From: Nanobdellota archaeon
GTDB taxonomy: Archaea; Nanobdellota; Nanobdellia; Parvarchaeales; Parvarchaeaceae
Assembly (NCBI GenBank): GCA_021810345.1
Contig: JAJZIX010000008.1
Span: forward strand, 1-32,921
Length of the DNA: 32,921 nucleotides
Direction of reading: 5' to 3'
Each line of letters starts with the position of its first letter. Positions within the stretch are counted from its first letter, which is position 1. A program made the position numbers and the translations under genes. Under the pieces are notes generated by a model, which was given only the letters and a program-made list of their open reading frames with translations, was not told the origin of the DNA and did no database searches. Shown here piece by piece: positions 9,129 through 28,086 of the stretch.

Positions 9129-11471
9129 ATGAGCTCCCCACGAAGATCCCAATCAGCATTGGAGTATATGATGACGTACGGCTGGGCTATACTAGTCATT
9201 GTGATAGTTGCAGGCGTGTTATACAGTCTAGGTATCTTCTCACCTTCATCAGCAATATCCTCTACAGTCACAGGTTTCTCAAACTTGGGCAGTGTAACAG
9301 CCCAATGCATAGGAAACCAGGGCCTTACGATACAGCTGGGAGACTCAGTAGGCTATACAATACAGATAACCAACATCTCAGTATCAGCAAGCGGAAAAAC
9401 AGTGAGCATGCCCGAGCAGGCGACTATAGCCCCAAGCGGAACCAAGGTCTTCTATATCTCAAATGTCTGTCCTTCTCCAAGTTCCAGATACTCATTAAGC
9501 GTAACTGTATACTACACCGAACCTGGCCAGATATTCCCCGGCCCTTATACATCAACAGGAACTATAACCGGATCCTCCTCAAAACAGCAGATTTCGTCAA
9601 CTCCTGCCTTTGATCAAGCGATTCCTCTAACAATAACAAACAGCCAGGATAATTCGACTCCAAATCCATACCAGCAGATGGTCATAGTCCCATCGTCAGT
9701 ATACGGCGGATACGCTGCCCCCAACTTTCAGAACGTTGAATTCTTCTACTCCAATGGGAGCATAGTCCCATCATGGCTTCAGAATTATACGAGCACAAAC
9801 GCCACTTGGTGGCTCAAGCTGTCCAGCATATCCGCATCGTCATCAAAGACGGTCTATATGGGATTCGTTCCCAAATCCACAAGCCTATTCAATACAGCGA
9901 ATGACGGTGAGGCCCCCCAGCTTTCCTCAACATATGCGGAATACGATGATGGGGCTAATGTATTTGTTCATTATTTTAATTTTGCAGGAACAGCACTCCC
10001 TTCAGGATTATCTGAAAGCGGTGTTACATACACTGTCTCAAACGGTCTGAACATCACAGCGTTCGCTTCAAATAGTGCATACATAGAAATATCTGGAACG
10101 ACCTTTTCTCCTCCTATAATATTTGAAGTATATGGAAATCCGTGGTATGCAGGCACGGCAGGAGGATATGAAATCGGCGGTATAATCAATCCCGGCACAA
10201 CAAACGTCAATGTAGCTAGTATTGTAAGTTATGGGGGAGATCCGGGAATATACGGTCAGCAGAGCAATTCAGCGGGCAGTTCAGTCATTACATCAAATCT
10301 CGTCACTTCCCAGACTACGGGGATTTGGTCTTCCAACATAATATCCTCCACTTCCTCTTCATACCAGCTAAATCATGGCTTTGCTTTATCACTTACTACG
10401 GACGCTCCAACTTATTCGCTCCCTGCGGGCTTCGGAGCGGGTGGGGCTTTATCAGGACTCACAGGTACTATTACTTGGTATCGTGTCCGTACCTATCCTC
10501 CAAATGGGATAATGCCATCAGTCTCATTCGGTTACCCATCAAACATAACCAAACCTGCTAATATCCAGTCTTATGCCCCTCTAACAATCTCAAACAACCA
10601 GAATGTCTCAGTATCAAACTTCCAGCAGATGGTTAACGTGCCTTCTTCTGTATTCACAGGATACGCAAATACTGCTTCTGGCGCAGCATTTCAAAACGTT
10701 GAATTTTTCTACGCCAATGGTACTGTGATACCTTCATGGCTTGAAAACTACACCTCATCTAACGCGTTATACTGGATAAAACTTCCTTCAGTTCCAGCAG
10801 CAACTTCATTTACAGTTTATCTTGGCTTCGCTCCAACATCGACCAATCTTTTCAACACAAATAACATCGGAGAGGCCCCTCAACTTTCATCAACATATGC
10901 AGAGTACGATGACGGTGCAAACGTATTCACCAACTACTGGAATTTTGCAGGGACAACTCTGCCAAGCGGATGGACACAAGTTGGAACTGGATATTCTATA
11001 AATAATGGGTTTGAGTTTCAAAGTCCTGGAACAGCCTCGAACAATAATTATATCGAAAGCACATCTACATTTTCACAAGGAATAATTACAGAAGCGTATA
11101 TCTATCCTACTAATTTAGGCTGGGTGGGGTTCTCTCAATTTGGAACATACTCTTCCGGCGGTGTACTATTTTATTATTACCCTGGCCAAAACGGTTGGGA
11201 AGTTTATAATGGAAACCAATTACATTATACGGGAAATGATGCTGAAAACACTTATTACATTCTAAGTGCTATTACTCCTGGTTCTAGATATGCTTACCTT
11301 GCAGTTAACTATCAAATTCTCATATTATCTTCTTCTGGTTATATTGCAAATTCAAACGGTAATTTATATGTTGGTGATGGCGGAGGAACTGGAACTATGT
11401 ACTGGCTTCGTGTTCGTGCCTATCCTCCAAACGGAGTTATGCCTTCTGTGAGTTTTGGAAGCGTAAGCTAA
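9129..11471 (+). CDS. Type IV pilin-signal adhesin with duplicated DUF2341/LamG-like module
   Basis: I start this 780-residue protein at ATG 9129 (MSSPRRSQSALEYMM). The N terminus is a class III (archaeal prepilin) signal: a basic stretch, Q-S-A-L-E with Glu at +5, then a hydrophobic segment of about 20 residues. Processing by a FlaK/PibD/EppA-type peptidase is expected. Residues about 49-149 form a small beta domain with two Cys. Two copies of a roughly 300-residue module follow (about 166-471 and 484-780). Each has a DUF2341-like front (FQNVEFFY, NAxxWxKL, EAPQLSSTYAEYDDGANVF), a concanavalin/LamG-like region, and an ending RVRxYPPNGxMPSVSFG. N-x-S/T sequons are frequent. I infer a cell-surface adhesin or pilus-associated protein; the ligand is unknown. 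Confidence 0.85.
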   Translation: MSSPRRSQSALEYMMTYGWAILVIVIVAGVLYSLGIFSPSSAISSTVTGFSNLGSVTAQCIGNQGLTIQLGDSVGYTIQITNISVSASGKTVSMPEQATIAPSGTKVFYISNVCPSPSSRYSLSVTVYYTEPGQIFPGPYTSTGTITGSSSKQQISSTPAFDQAIPLTITNSQDNSTPNPYQQMVIVPSSVYGGYAAPNFQNVEFFYSNGSIVPSWLQNYTSTNATWWLKLSSISASSSKTVYMGFVPKSTSLFNTANDGEAPQLSSTYAEYDDGANVFVHYFNFAGTALPSGLSESGVTYTVSNGLNITAFASNSAYIEISGTTFSPPIIFEVYGNPWYAGTAGGYEIGGIINPGTTNVNVASIVSYGGDPGIYGQQSNSAGSSVITSNLVTSQTTGIWSSNIISSTSSSYQLNHGFALSLTTDAPTYSLPAGFGAGGALSGLTGTITWYRVRTYPPNGIMPSVSFGYPSNITKPANIQSYAPLTISNNQNVSVSNFQQMVNVPSSVFTGYANTASGAAFQNVEFFYANGTVIPSWLENYTSSNALYWIKLPSVPAATSFTVYLGFAPTSTNLFNTNNIGEAPQLSSTYAEYDDGANVFTNYWNFAGTTLPSGWTQVGTGYSINNGFEFQSPGTASNNNYIESTSTFSQGIITEAYIYPTNLGWVGFSQFGTYSSGGVLFYYYPGQNGWEVYNGNQLHYTGNDAENTYYILSAITPGSRYAYLAVNYQILILSSSGYIANSNGNLYVGDGGGTGTMYWLRVRAYPPNGVMPSVSFGSVS
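9624..10541 (+). repeat. Adhesin module, copy 1 (protein-level repeat)
   Basis: Encodes about 306 residues from PLTITNSQDN to SVSFGYPS. It aligns with copy 2 at the start (QQMVxVPSSV, FQNVEFFY), in the middle (GEAPQLSSTYAEYDDGANVF) and at the end (RVRTYPPNGIMPSVSFG). The central LamG-like part has diverged strongly. Confidence 0.85.
10578..11468 (+). repeat. Adhesin module, copy 2 (protein-level repeat)
   Basis: Encodes about 297 residues from PLTISNNQNV to SVSFGSVS, parallel to copy 1. The nucleotide sequence from about 11030 to 11400 is visibly richer in A+T than copy 1, which suggests that the middle of the module was replaced or evolved separately. Confidence 0.85.
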
Positions 11472-12211: not shown

Positions 12212-12667
12212 TCAGTGGGCGGATTTGATGCGTCTGTATTCGATGATCGCGACAAATAGGATCACAAGTATAGAGATGTGTCCCGCGGTGCACAGGATGC
12301 ATATGTGGTGCAGCACGAACAGCTCCGTGTAAACCAGATAGGCGACCAGGATGGCTGCGAGTCCGCTGACGAGCATAAGCAGCTTCAGAAGAAGAACCCT
12401 GCGTTTGCGGACGAATATGTAGAGATAGGACAGGACGGCTGTCACAATGAAGAACGCCAGGCCGTAGTAATACAGGTCTACGCCCCCGATTTTGGAGTAT
12501 TGGCTTGTGACAACTGCGCCGCAGTTGAGTGGCGATCCCGTGATAGTACAGGAATTCGGGGATATCACGTTGGCTGAGAATGATAGTATTAGGTAAAGCA
12601 TCGCTGCAAGCCCGATGATACTGAAAGCCAGCAAGAGGTACTGGAGCTTATTGTTTTTATGGTCCAT
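12212..12667 (-). CDS. VKOR-family disulfide-generating membrane protein
   Basis: Vitamin K epoxide reductase homologues in prokaryotes pass electrons from periplasmic or extracytoplasmic dithiol oxidases to membrane quinones. This 151-residue protein has four to five hydrophobic segments and the four family cysteines: Cys40 and Cys49 in the first loop (NSC...LNCG) and the active CILC at 123-126 (HHICILCTAGH). The loop GGVDLYYYGLAFF is also typical. It is the bare VKOR domain with no fused thioredoxin. It follows tbp after 3 nt. Its likely job is disulfide formation in surface proteins such as the Cys-containing adhesins here; the oxidase partner is not in the window. Confidence 0.92.
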   Translation of the reverse strand: MDHKNNKLQYLLLAFSIIGLAAMLYLILSFSANVISPNSCTITGSPLNCGAVVTSQYSKIGGVDLYYYGLAFFIVTAVLSYLYIFVRKRRVLLLKLLMLVSGLAAILVAYLVYTELFVLHHICILCTAGHISILVILFVAIIEYRRIKSAH

Positions 12668-19732: not shown

Positions 19733-22537
19733 ATGATGAAATCTACAAGGGTATTCATTGTGCTGTTTCTTTTGTCGCTGTTGATGGTGGGGGTCGTCTA
19801 CGGATTTCATGGCTCTTCTTCTCTGCCCGCGTCCGGGCAATATAATAAGACAGTCATTTTGACCACAGGTATAAACAGTATAGACAGCTTTTCGGCTTAT
19901 CCTATTTCCAGTTTAGAAGGCATACCTGTAATATCTATAAACGGCACGACTATCTCACAAGGTTTCGCCCAGAATCTCTCGTCTCAGGGCGTGAAGACCG
20001 CCATAGTATTGGGTGGCCCCGTCGTGATATCCAATTCCACTATTGCCTCGCTGCAGGCTGCGGGCTTGAATGTGATAAGGATATGGGGGGTCACAGCTTC
20101 GGATACGGCTCTGCAGTTCACACAATATTTCATGCCATCTTCTCCACTAAAATGCGCAGTCATAGTCTATTACAATGAGACGCCAGCTACTACATACAAT
20201 TACGAATTTGCTGCAAGTGTTTATGCTTCTAGAAACCACTGTTTGATGTTTCCAAGTTACTTTTCCGAGATTGCAATCCCGGTGTTAAATTACTTGAGAC
20301 AAAATTTGATAACCAATACCACTTATTTTGGGCCAGTGCATCTCTCTCCTCTAGCTACTGCTAACGTTTCTGGGCTCAGGTCCGTGGTCGGAAATGCATC
20401 CTTTATGTCAAGATTCATTCCATCAGTTAATCCTGTACATCCTGACAGATATATCATAGTCGGCGTAGACAGTGCTGCGTGGAATGCTTCTATGGTCCTA
20501 GGGTCGCTTCCTTCGGTCAATTCTTCGATAAGCTTAGTGAGCGATCCTCAAGTTCAGATGCCCGATATAATAGCTGCGATAAAATCAGAAGATATAACGG
20601 ACGTCAAGGTTATCGGGATACCTTCGATAGTTTCACAAATAGATTCCATATTAGCAGCCAATGGCATAACGCCAGTAACATATAGCGGCTCTGGCGAGGG
20701 CCTTATGGATAAAGTATTGAGCGCTTTTAAAGATAGGGTACACGGCGAGGGTGCAATCAGCGCAAATGCCCACTTAATAAATGAGTCATTCAATGTATCT
20801 GCTATAAGACTTTTGATACAAAACCTGTCACAGCAAGTCGAATCCTACAACGTTTCGCTTCGTTCGTCCATCTCTGCTAATACTAATATGACCCTCGAGG
20901 CAAGAACTGCTCTACAGGGCCTAATTGTAAAATTGACCGGAATAAATGGGCTATTGAGCGAGGCGAGTTCTTATCTTGCGAATGGCAATATATCCGGCGC
21001 AATGTCTCTAGTACAACAGGCGCGTTCTGGATTGAATGAGGCGCTGTACTTTTCCCCGGAAAGGTCATCATTAGTCGCGAGTGGACATGCCACTTTTGGC
21101 AACGTCAGCACCCTAGTAAATTATGTTCTATCTAAATTAAACAACATCGGGAACGTGAATGCACTGTATGCAATCAATACCTCCACTAGTATGCACTTTT
21201 CGAATAATTATCCCATATTTTCTCAAACACCGAGTTCGACGCCAGTAGAAGTCACGGGATTTGCTGGATTTAACATACTCAACCCACTTTTAGTAAATCA
21301 ATCAATATCTTTTCAACTTGTGAATGAGGTTGGTTATTCAGTAAAGTTGATCAGCATCGATGGTAAGAGTTATGGCACGGGCAATGGTTCTGCTGTCGTG
21401 GCCGTAAACGAATCACTGGACAATGCGTCTCTTCCCCCCAAAGGAACAATCAATGTAACTCTGCGATCTATATGTCAACATCCACAATGTAGCGCATTCA
21501 TTACTATAATTTACACTGAGCCATCCAGTGCTTTCCCGTCGCCTATGGAGACAGCAGGTATGATATCTTTTAATCCGGCGACCAATAATGGCATAAATAC
21601 TACCACAGAAGAAGCTGTGGTGAAGTTGTATAATATGTTGATGTCTAACATACACTCCTCATCGAGCATACGCTTCACTTCGAATGCAAATGTAGGCAAA
21701 GAGTTATACGCCACTGTGAATCTCGGGCAGTTTGCTCTGCGCACGTACTTCCTCTCATCATTACCATCTTCAAATTATACCGCTGCTGAGATACAGTCCA
21801 AATACGATGAGTACCCGGCTTTCTTAAGCAACCATAGTAATTTCAAGCTTTTCATAAGCGGTTACATTTTGAGTAATGATTCTAACTTATACACATGCAC
21901 CGCGGCGCCCCCAAACCTAAATTCACTTACTTCATCGGCTCCACAGGATAAAGCATATTACCCAACGCAGTCAAATTGTACGACATTAGTGAATGAGAGT
22001 GGTCTTTCTAGCATTTTACCGGCTTCACTCAGTCACACGGGCGTGATCAATTATATGTTGCTTTCTTCTATTGTAGGATTACCCCTAACTCCAACTGAAA
22101 CTTCCCAAATCCCCGTCTCATCAGTTAATCTTAATTACGTCGGAAACAGAATATACAGTGGTAGGAACTGCTCCTATTATTATATCACCGGCGAAGGTTC
22201 ATCGGGGGGTATTATAGGTGCTTATACTTCAAATTATACCTTAAATATATGCATAGACAATGCGCTAGGTATCCCTATAGAATCTAGGTACTCAATGCAG
22301 GTCAACATGTTGGAAAATGGCAGTAATGTGATGTCGCTTCTTTACTCACAGAATTCTCTTCTAACTGGAGTAAATACTTCATCAGCGCCAGTGATTGCAC
22401 TACCAGCCGGTTCCAGCTTTTTAGCTACGTCACAGTCTTATGGGCTGCCTTTCTTTTTACCATTTTTCCCCATGGCTTTAGAGGGGTTGGGTGTATTCGC
22501 TTCAGGTGGCAGCACGGCGCCTAGTGGCGGTAGCTAG
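19733..22537 (+). CDS. Large secreted surface protein with CWB2-like repeats and pilin-like domain
   Basis: The 934-residue protein starts with a signal-peptide-like segment (RVFIVLFLLSLLMVGVVYG). Residues about 39-135 resemble cell wall binding repeat 2 (CWB2): TVILTTG, DSFSAYPIS, GIPVISING, VKTAIVLGGPVVIS, GLNVIRIWGV. Residues about 236-320 look like a second, degenerate copy (DRYIIVGVDSAAW, VKVIGIPSIV). A helical stretch (about 350-440) and a beta domain like that of the 9129 adhesin (about 505-614, YTEPSSAFPSP) follow. Sequons are abundant and several Cys occur. The C terminus is hydrophobic (FFLPFFPMALEGLGVF), then Gly/Ser-rich. I infer a glycosylated cell-envelope protein. The number of sequons and the codon choice differ from neighbouring housekeeping genes. 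Confidence 0.75.
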   Translation: MMKSTRVFIVLFLLSLLMVGVVYGFHGSSSLPASGQYNKTVILTTGINSIDSFSAYPISSLEGIPVISINGTTISQGFAQNLSSQGVKTAIVLGGPVVISNSTIASLQAAGLNVIRIWGVTASDTALQFTQYFMPSSPLKCAVIVYYNETPATTYNYEFAASVYASRNHCLMFPSYFSEIAIPVLNYLRQNLITNTTYFGPVHLSPLATANVSGLRSVVGNASFMSRFIPSVNPVHPDRYIIVGVDSAAWNASMVLGSLPSVNSSISLVSDPQVQMPDIIAAIKSEDITDVKVIGIPSIVSQIDSILAANGITPVTYSGSGEGLMDKVLSAFKDRVHGEGAISANAHLINESFNVSAIRLLIQNLSQQVESYNVSLRSSISANTNMTLEARTALQGLIVKLTGINGLLSEASSYLANGNISGAMSLVQQARSGLNEALYFSPERSSLVASGHATFGNVSTLVNYVLSKLNNIGNVNALYAINTSTSMHFSNNYPIFSQTPSSTPVEVTGFAGFNILNPLLVNQSISFQLVNEVGYSVKLISIDGKSYGTGNGSAVVAVNESLDNASLPPKGTINVTLRSICQHPQCSAFITIIYTEPSSAFPSPMETAGMISFNPATNNGINTTTEEAVVKLYNMLMSNIHSSSSIRFTSNANVGKELYATVNLGQFALRTYFLSSLPSSNYTAAEIQSKYDEYPAFLSNHSNFKLFISGYILSNDSNLYTCTAAPPNLNSLTSSAPQDKAYYPTQSNCTTLVNESGLSSILPASLSHTGVINYMLLSSIVGLPLTPTETSQIPVSSVNLNYVGNRIYSGRNCSYYYITGEGSSGGIIGAYTSNYTLNICIDNALGIPIESRYSMQVNMLENGSNVMSLLYSQNSLLTGVNTSSAPVIALPAGSSFLATSQSYGLPFFLPFFPMALEGLGVFASGGSTAPSGGS

Positions 22538-26637: not shown

Positions 26638-28086
26638 ATGCACATCAAACATCATTATGCTGCGACGACTTTAGCAGTCGTGTTCTTGGTTGCGATGGTC
26701 GTACTGGTCGCTTCGAAGTACCAGTTTGCAAACAATCAGGTTTCTTCTACTAACAGTGTATTAAGTACATATCAAAATGCACAGAACGCGCTTAGCAACA
26801 AGGCATCAACACTGGCACAGAGCGTTAGCACACTGTCCTCAAAATTAACTTCTTCGAACGCCACGATACAGACAGATGCGAATGAAATAGCAAGCTTACA
26901 GAGCGAGCTCAGCGCAGCCGAATCAAAAGTCAGCAGCTTATCCACTGACGCAGCCGCAATCTCATCCATGAACTCAAGCCTTCAGATGTACAAGTCTTTC
27001 TACACTTCACAGATTTCAACAATCTCCGCGCAGCTTACCCAGATTGCATCATTAAACAGCAAGATATCACAGTTAAGCATTTTAATCAATCATTTTACCC
27101 CCTTATTATTAACTAACTTAGATAATATCTTACCAGCCAGTTTTAATACCACCGGAGCGAGTAGCTGGACTAAATATTCTATGCTTAATTCAGTCTCATA
27201 TAATGGTTCTGATTTATTTATGATAGGAGGCAAGAATAATAGTGCCGCAGAGACACCAACGTCCATTGGCGCGCTATACAACCCCTCTTCAAATAAGTTT
27301 ACTGACTTGAGTTCTCTGTTTTCAGCTTACCCAGACATTTATCTTATGGCGACCGCATCTAATGGTGGTACATATTTAATTGCAGCTGCCACGCCAGCGA
27401 AGTCACCTTCTGGTTTTCATGCGGATTTACTTATGTATAATAATGGAGCGGTTTCTAATCTTACGTCTGCGCTGCCATCCGGCAGCGACTTTTTCCCGGA
27501 GGGCATGGCTTATGGGAATGGAACGTACTTAATCACAGGATTCTACCAGTCGAGTGGAAGCACTAACTTTTCACCGGTTTTATTCGCATACAGTACAGCT
27601 AAAGGATTAACCAATTTAACTTCGGAAATACCTTCATCCCTTAAGGGTACAGTGTTTCTAAGTGTAGCTTACGATGGATCGGATTATGGTATACTCGATG
27701 TAAATTTCAGCGGAGGCAATGTATGCGCGGCTCTGTATAATTGTAGTTGGAATAAAAATAACCCCTCCCCTAACAACGTTAACATCGTGATGTACAATCC
27801 GCTAGCAAAAACCTTTACTACATACAAGCAAAATCTAAGCAATTGGTTTAATGGCGGTATATCGTGGGATGGAGCAAAATTCTTAGTAGTAAATGCAGTA
27901 CCAGGTGGATTTACAACAGGCATGTTCAGCCCGGATACATTTAATTACACCCCAATAATTAATGCTGCGAATGAGTCTCCTGGTGTCCCAGGTCAAGGCA
28001 TTGCATGGAACGGATATGAGTTTTTCATACCTGGTTTAGGTCCAAATGGAAACGGTCAATCTCCCTTCTTGTTCTCATACTCATAA
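26638..28086 (+). CDS. Membrane-anchored coiled-coil stalk with probable beta-propeller head
   Basis: The 482-residue protein has a short basic N terminus and one transmembrane segment (about 9-26, TTLAVVFLVAMVVLVAS), which suggests an N-in, C-out anchor. Residues about 35-150 are Ser/Ala/Gln-rich heptad-like sequence (STLAQSVSTLSSKL, IASLQSELSAAESKV), so a coiled coil is likely. From about 170 onward, repeated motifs such as WTKYSMLNSVSYNGSDLFMIGG, AYGNGTYLITGF, VAYDGSDYGIL, ISWDGAKFLVV and IAWNGYEFFIPG recur at about 50-70 residues, consistent with propeller blades. Sequons are common. The base composition becomes more AT-rich from about nt 27080. The function is probably surface recognition; no enzyme motif is seen. 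Confidence 0.75.
   Translation: MHIKHHYAATTLAVVFLVAMVVLVASKYQFANNQVSSTNSVLSTYQNAQNALSNKASTLAQSVSTLSSKLTSSNATIQTDANEIASLQSELSAAESKVSSLSTDAAAISSMNSSLQMYKSFYTSQISTISAQLTQIASLNSKISQLSILINHFTPLLLTNLDNILPASFNTTGASSWTKYSMLNSVSYNGSDLFMIGGKNNSAAETPTSIGALYNPSSNKFTDLSSLFSAYPDIYLMATASNGGTYLIAAATPAKSPSGFHADLLMYNNGAVSNLTSALPSGSDFFPEGMAYGNGTYLITGFYQSSGSTNFSPVLFAYSTAKGLTNLTSEIPSSLKGTVFLSVAYDGSDYGILDVNFSGGNVCAALYNCSWNKNNPSPNNVNIVMYNPLAKTFTTYKQNLSNWFNGGISWDGAKFLVVNAVPGGFTTGMFSPDTFNYTPIINAANESPGVPGQGIAWNGYEFFIPGLGPNGNGQSPFLFSYS

Follow-up and report, generated by a model that had tools for sequence, protein, structure and literature searches.

An archaeal type IV pilin head domain shared by modular pilins and a CWB2-like surface protein in a Parvarchaeaceae archaeon

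Two otherwise unrelated surface proteins of a Nanobdellota archaeon (Parvarchaeaceae) carry the same extracellular domain, identified as the globular beta-sandwich that forms the head of archaeal type IV pilins. Both are encoded in a 32,921-nucleotide stretch of contig JAJZIX010000008.1 (assembly GCA_021810345.1), the whole of which we call the window. It is very probable, in our judgment, that a helix-head unit with varied tails serves this lineage as a platform for pilin assembly and adhesins, and that the head has been reused as an extracellular beta-sandwich in other proteins.

One domain in two surface proteins

The two proteins, named here by their first nucleotides (9129 and 19733), have the following parts.

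9129..11471, + strand: modular pilin/adhesin, 780 residues (translation; DUF2341 match at 3.2e-11; modelled helix and beta-sandwich)
9129..9236, + strand: class III signal and N-terminal helix, MSSPRRS/QSALEYMMTYGWAILVIVIVAGVLYSLGIF (sequence; helix in the model)
9237..9575, + strand: pilin head, the modular-pilin copy, residues 37-149, with Cys 60 and Cys 114 (genome search, BLASTP, profiles, model)
19733..22537, + strand: secreted CWB2-like surface protein, 934 residues, which carries the second head (translation; CWB2 profile matches)
19820..20737, + strand: CWB2-like region, residues 30-335 (48-52% identity to three orthologs)
21230..21574, + strand: pilin head without a prepilin signal, residues 500-614, with Cys 581 and Cys 586 (search, BLASTP, profiles, model)
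21581..22534, + strand: stretch that follows the head copy (apparent counterpart of residues 431-676 in the ortholog L221)

In the 9129 protein, a class III (prepilin) signal is followed by a hydrophobic helix, the beta-sandwich head and a tail with DUF2341-type and jelly-roll-like parts. It is a modular pilin in that a pilin module precedes a non-pilin module, which within the family is a DUF2341, Laminin_G_3 or propeller tail. The signal (RRS/QSALE) has Glu at +5 counted from the inferred cleavage point and runs into the hydrophobic helix, and the Q, S, E, Y and G of the class III motif are invariant across 36 relatives. The class III signal of 9129-type proteins had no Pfam match, and the family matched none of the Pfam pilin models. 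The 19733 protein begins instead with a Sec-type signal, which is followed by the CWB2-like region; the hosts are otherwise unrelated, as a sequence-only reading of this DNA had proposed.

In a single BLASTP comparison the two segments (47-147 in the 9129 protein, 507-612 in the 19733 protein) were 29% identical (E=4e-9). With the 9129 segment as query, a six-frame search through all 670 kb of the genome returned 15 matches, one of them the 19733 copy (E=2.6e-9). This copy was given 39.7 bits by an HMM from which it had been left out, whereas the best of 2000 shuffled sequences reached 12.6 bits. The profile-profile comparison that had been proposed as a check was highly significant: hhalign of a pilin-only against a non-pilin-only profile, which have no sequence in common, gave a probability of 99.5% and E=5e-23 over 113 columns. 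By these sequence comparisons the homology of the two copies is confirmed, as is the earlier claim of one domain on two proteins. The motifs on which that claim was built (NQxIxFQL..VGY, P-x-GT and YTEPxxxFPxP) are present and in register in both proteins. The domain lies where it had been placed but is slightly longer than was thought, at about 9237-9575 and 21230-21574. Nor is it confined to these two proteins, with about 20 head copies in this genome and at least one in each of the 28 genomes of the genus.

Both sequences are extracellular and skewed in composition, and two unrelated beta-rich surface domains rich in Ser, Thr and Asn might have converged on a similar appearance. We regard such convergence as extremely improbable: it is opposed by the shuffled controls, the held-out HMM and the independent profile comparison, as well as by a further non-pilin copy (contig C8, DUF4382 protein), which shares 58% identity with the head of a short pilin of this genome. 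Convergence or a composition artefact was accordingly ruled out by the shuffles, the held-out HMM and the independent profiles.

Structure prediction, the other proposed check, agreed with the sequence comparisons in that both AlphaFold2 models are beta-sandwiches whose strands follow largely the same order and whose Foldseek neighbours overlap. The 9129 model, built with 36 pilin relatives, has a helix and eight strands (pLDDT 78), and that of the 19733 copy, built with only six other non-pilin copies, has seven strands (pLDDT 79.6, pTM 0.74); the two underlying alignments were disjoint. When the strand lists were compared by eye, the order agreed except for one strand, located in a low-confidence loop of the 19733-copy model. 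Foldseek neighbours common to both models were a TRAP subunit, an ApaG-type domain and the Wzt C-terminal domain. Archaeal pili were also found, 8fk7 for both models and 6w8u and 8q30 for one each; for the 9129 model the archaeal type IV pili 6w8u and 8fk7 stood at ranks 4 and 6 with low TM-scores. TM-scores to solved pilins were low (0.33-0.45), and general Ig/FN3-like folds scored equally high. The predicted fold is an Ig-like sandwich compatible with archaeal pilins, in line with the pilin-like beta domain first proposed.

The cysteines required a revision. In the alignment C60/C114 of the 9129 protein and C581/C586 of the 19733 protein are non-equivalent, and just the second 9129 Cys has a counterpart; a single Cys pair common to both proteins, as had been described, was thereby ruled out. 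A disulfide shared by the two proteins is thus not supported in the form proposed, although two Cys are a feature of the family: exactly two occur in 98 of 118 pilin heads, and those of the non-pilin copies other than 19733 lie at about domain positions 21 and 80, but the 19733 copy is exceptional, with Cys at positions 82 and 87. Disulfide formation in the heads would be plausible at this cell surface because the window encodes a thioredoxin and the following protein.

12212..12667, - strand: VKOR-family membrane protein (PF07884, E=1.4e-19)

The VKOR-family protein is a possible source of extracytoplasmic disulfides for Cys-paired heads. A separate gene of the window (26638-28086, + strand) encodes a secreted product whose N-terminal part resembles a coiled coil and which weakly matches a Kelch-type propeller; it is likely another surface protein.

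Identity as a pilin head

We identify the domain as a pilin head because of its class III signal context, its matches to short pilins, a pilus locus in the same genome and sub-threshold matches to UpsA and BasC. Pilins of Parvarchaeales have been noted before (PMC10134863). Pfam contains no model of this head, and no solved structure matched it by sequence. Of 279 genomes in a phylum-wide profile search, 46 had head matches. Most of those from beyond the genus lay in ORFs of about 150-170 residues, and in most of the extra-genus ORFs that were read a class III-type signal precedes the head. A 144-residue pilin of our genome is similarly little more than signal, helix and head. This pilin belongs to the following locus.

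L204:821-5597: type IV pilus locus; besides the T2SSE ATPase and the FlaJ-like protein it encodes an opposite-strand 144-residue pilin carrying the head

The T2SSE ATPase at the pilin locus was matched at 7.8e-21. T2SSF was over the cut-off at C13 and sub-threshold at the C20 pilin locus, and a prepilin-type peptidase (Peptidase_A24) was over the cut-off. Thus, assembly ATPase, platform protein and prepilin peptidase are all present in this genome. Pilins are cleaved and then assembled via the N-terminal helix, with heads facing outward. 9129-type proteins would likewise assemble into pili and display adhesive tails. The pilins plausibly have a role in shared assembly, which the sequence-only reading also raised; for the 19733 protein such a role is a possibility.

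Sub-threshold NCBIfam matches linked 9 of 36 members to UpsA and 7 of 36 to BasC (best BasC 5.9e-5), all below the NCBIfam cut-offs wherever bits were listed. The BasC matches, together with LamG-type lectin-like tails, would fit export of the 9129 family by a system like the bindosome, its class III proteins being binding proteins embedded in the envelope rather than pilus subunits. However, UpsA-like matches are about equal in strength to those of BasC, the one BasC match with bits listed reached 16 bits against a curated cut-off of 260, and known bindosome substrates are transporter-linked sugar-binding proteins (PMC4187195). We consider this alternative improbable and retain the assignment to pilins.

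Pilin paralogs and head copies in other proteins

The head has spread mainly by expansion of variable-tail pilins and has only occasionally been placed in other proteins. It occurs in all 28 genomes of the genus with 1-32 matches each, and our genome contains 13 long or truncated ORFs with signal and head in addition to short pilins. The tails of the pilin fusions are DUF2341, LamG (Laminin_G_3), beta-propeller or unknown. Paralogous fusions (L002-L007, L010, L011) are mosaics of near-identical heads and very different lectin-like tails, and some of them also have near-identical DUF2341 parts.

In four paralog pairs the heads are 94-100% identical, whereas the tails are 33-59% identical. Synonymous divergence in the same pairs was 0.25-0.49 for the heads versus 0.78-1.84 for the adjacent helix (Fisher p 0.0006, 0.005, 0.047 and 0.17), a comparison in which the helix segment is short (32 codons) and the evidence from two of the pairs, at 0.047 and 0.167, is weak. 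The heads show purifying selection as well as synonymous divergence below that of the helix. This pattern suggests constraint on the heads together with some exchange of them between paralogs; recent gene conversion of whole heads may not be the only cause of their near-identity.

Besides the 19733 copy and the C8 copy already mentioned, heads without a prepilin signal were detected twice in a 430-residue protein on contig C7 and once in a 451-residue protein of another genome. In a tree of 125 rows and 115 columns, non-pilin copies grouped with pilins (19733, 99/93; C8, 100/93; the first C7 copy, 100/89) and were scattered among pilin heads, where well-supported branches require four or more changes of label. 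The finding of heads in CWB2-like, DUF4382 and two other backbones, and at positions that shift between the CWB2-like orthologs, fits the mobile extracellular module envisaged earlier. In another genome of the same class, a putative lipoprotein (LSGC signal) has a weak pilin-head-like domain (L176:1459-1791).

The backbone of the 19733 protein could be followed through its orthologs, one of which (in G088) is partial as it ends at a contig end. A profile of the CWB2-like region from four orthologs matched Cwp6 at 5e-8 and, weakly, S-layer proteins in the PDB. PF04122 matched all four orthologs (best 1.8e-6), although the 19733 protein scored 17.7 bits against a gathering score of 24.9, which L221 reaches; profiles reported a single CWB2 unit in the 19733 protein. 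The 19733 protein has its head inside the chain, whereas L221 lacks one at that place and has two C-terminal copies, the last ending YTEPGQSFPGPYTSSG. The region after the 19733 head scored 88 against residues 431-676 of L221 (300 shuffles: mean 47, SD 7.8, maximum 80). As far as these alignments indicate, the different head positions represent domain shuffling on one backbone. Because a single origin of the 19733 and L221 copies, placed together in one clade, was not rejected by the AU test (p=0.113), independent capture of heads by the two proteins is only suggested. The 704-residue orthologs L222 and L223 have at most a degenerate C-terminal head (L222:2680-3114, 11.5 bits), and since L222 holds at most such a copy, the head is not essential to the CWB2-like surface protein.

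Roles of the head and comparison with known systems

In the explanation that we favour, the pilin unit of class III signal, helix and head would be a platform in this Ca. Parvarchaeum-like lineage, copies of which would carry different C-terminal modules of ligand-binding type (DUF2341, LamG, beta-propeller). Type IV pilus machinery would assemble these modular pilins and so display the tails. The head would also have been copied, as a domain by itself, into proteins that are secreted or anchored in the membrane and lack a pilin signal, such as the 19733 protein, and outside pilins it may work as an extracellular, usually disulfide-braced beta-sandwich.

What the head does in the 19733 protein is a separate question. 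There is about an even chance that it is a generic Ig-like spacer, derived from pilins but keeping no pilin-related binding. The variable position and number of heads between orthologs, the shifted Cys pair and the long terminal branch of the 19733 copy are consistent with a spacer; nevertheless, this copy retains the N-terminal TGF strand, VGY and YTEPxxxFPxP segments, and an ortholog head copy has YTEPGQSFPGPYTSSG, points that count against it. Tentatively, and by analogy with ArlF, the copy may be a docking domain: pili or modular pilins would pack against the presented pilin head, whose head-to-head surface would hold them or other surface proteins at the envelope. We think this rather unlikely, though precedents exist in the archaellin-fold duplicates ArlF/ArlG, which anchor to the S-layer (PMC8667602), and in bindosome proteins with class III signals, which associate with the S-layer (PMC4187195), and a common packing surface would fit the conserved heads and diverged tails of the pilins. 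On the other hand, the 19733 protein was matched in just five of the 28 genus genomes, in one of them by the head region only. Doubtful, too, is a wider version in which homotypic head-head packing of pili and modular pilins on a surface-layer-type protein is combined with cassette exchange of heads between pilin adhesins and proteins of the envelope, in a DPANN archaeon that depends on a host.

Cultivated DPANN archaea require host contact, and to our knowledge the surface proteins that make it are largely unknown. Here one traceable module, absent from Pfam, marks many candidate adhesins and provides a handle to list and test them. The head in a CWB2-like protein also makes the hypothesis of pilus-to-envelope anchoring testable. 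It seems that a tiny acid-dwelling archaeon uses the same building block repeatedly in constructing its outer structures, and perhaps also in linking them. The openly licensed literature that we searched yielded no account of the shared head, of the lack of a Pfam model for it or of its move into CWB2-like or other envelope proteins.

Several known systems are similar in part. Modular pilins display grafted modules (PMC8179133), and in PilB and PilC of Streptococcus sanguinis (PMC8179133), as here, an adhesive module stands behind a pilin module, with ConA/LamG-type modules in both cases. Our family differs in being archaeal, in its unannotated beta-sandwich head, in having more than 12 paralogs in a genome of about 0.7 Mb, and in that the head is also found outside the pilin context. 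In the ARMAN archaeon Mia14, LamG surface proteins are expanded, and some are tied to type IV pilus loci and proposed for host contact (PMC5498576). What is alike is the expansion of LamG surface proteins in a DPANN archaeon that is acidophilic; the passages that we read mention neither a common pilin head nor its move into CWB2-like proteins. The Sulfolobus bindosome/Bas system (PMC4187195) also combines class III signals on ligand-binding proteins with assembly genes similar to those of type IV pili and with envelope association, but the tails here are LamG, DUF2341 or propeller modules rather than transporter-linked sugar-binding proteins, and the similarity to BasC is weak.

For the 19733 protein, sequence similarity to the CWB2 proteins Cwp6 and SlpA of Clostridioides difficile extends over about 90 residues, whereas it has one clear CWB2 unit and belongs to a DPANN archaeon. 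With ArlF/ArlG (PMC8667602) it shares the reuse of a filament-subunit beta-sandwich at the surface layer. Those proteins arose by whole-gene duplication and kept the N-terminal helix; the 19733 protein has a Sec-type signal, a CWB2-like region and an internal head instead of an N-terminal helix and archaellin-type domain, and no archaellum genes were recognised around it within the window. If true, transfer of the head into a multidomain CWB2-like protein without the helix would represent a second route, besides the whole-gene duplication of ArlF/ArlG, by which filament subunits enter the envelope.
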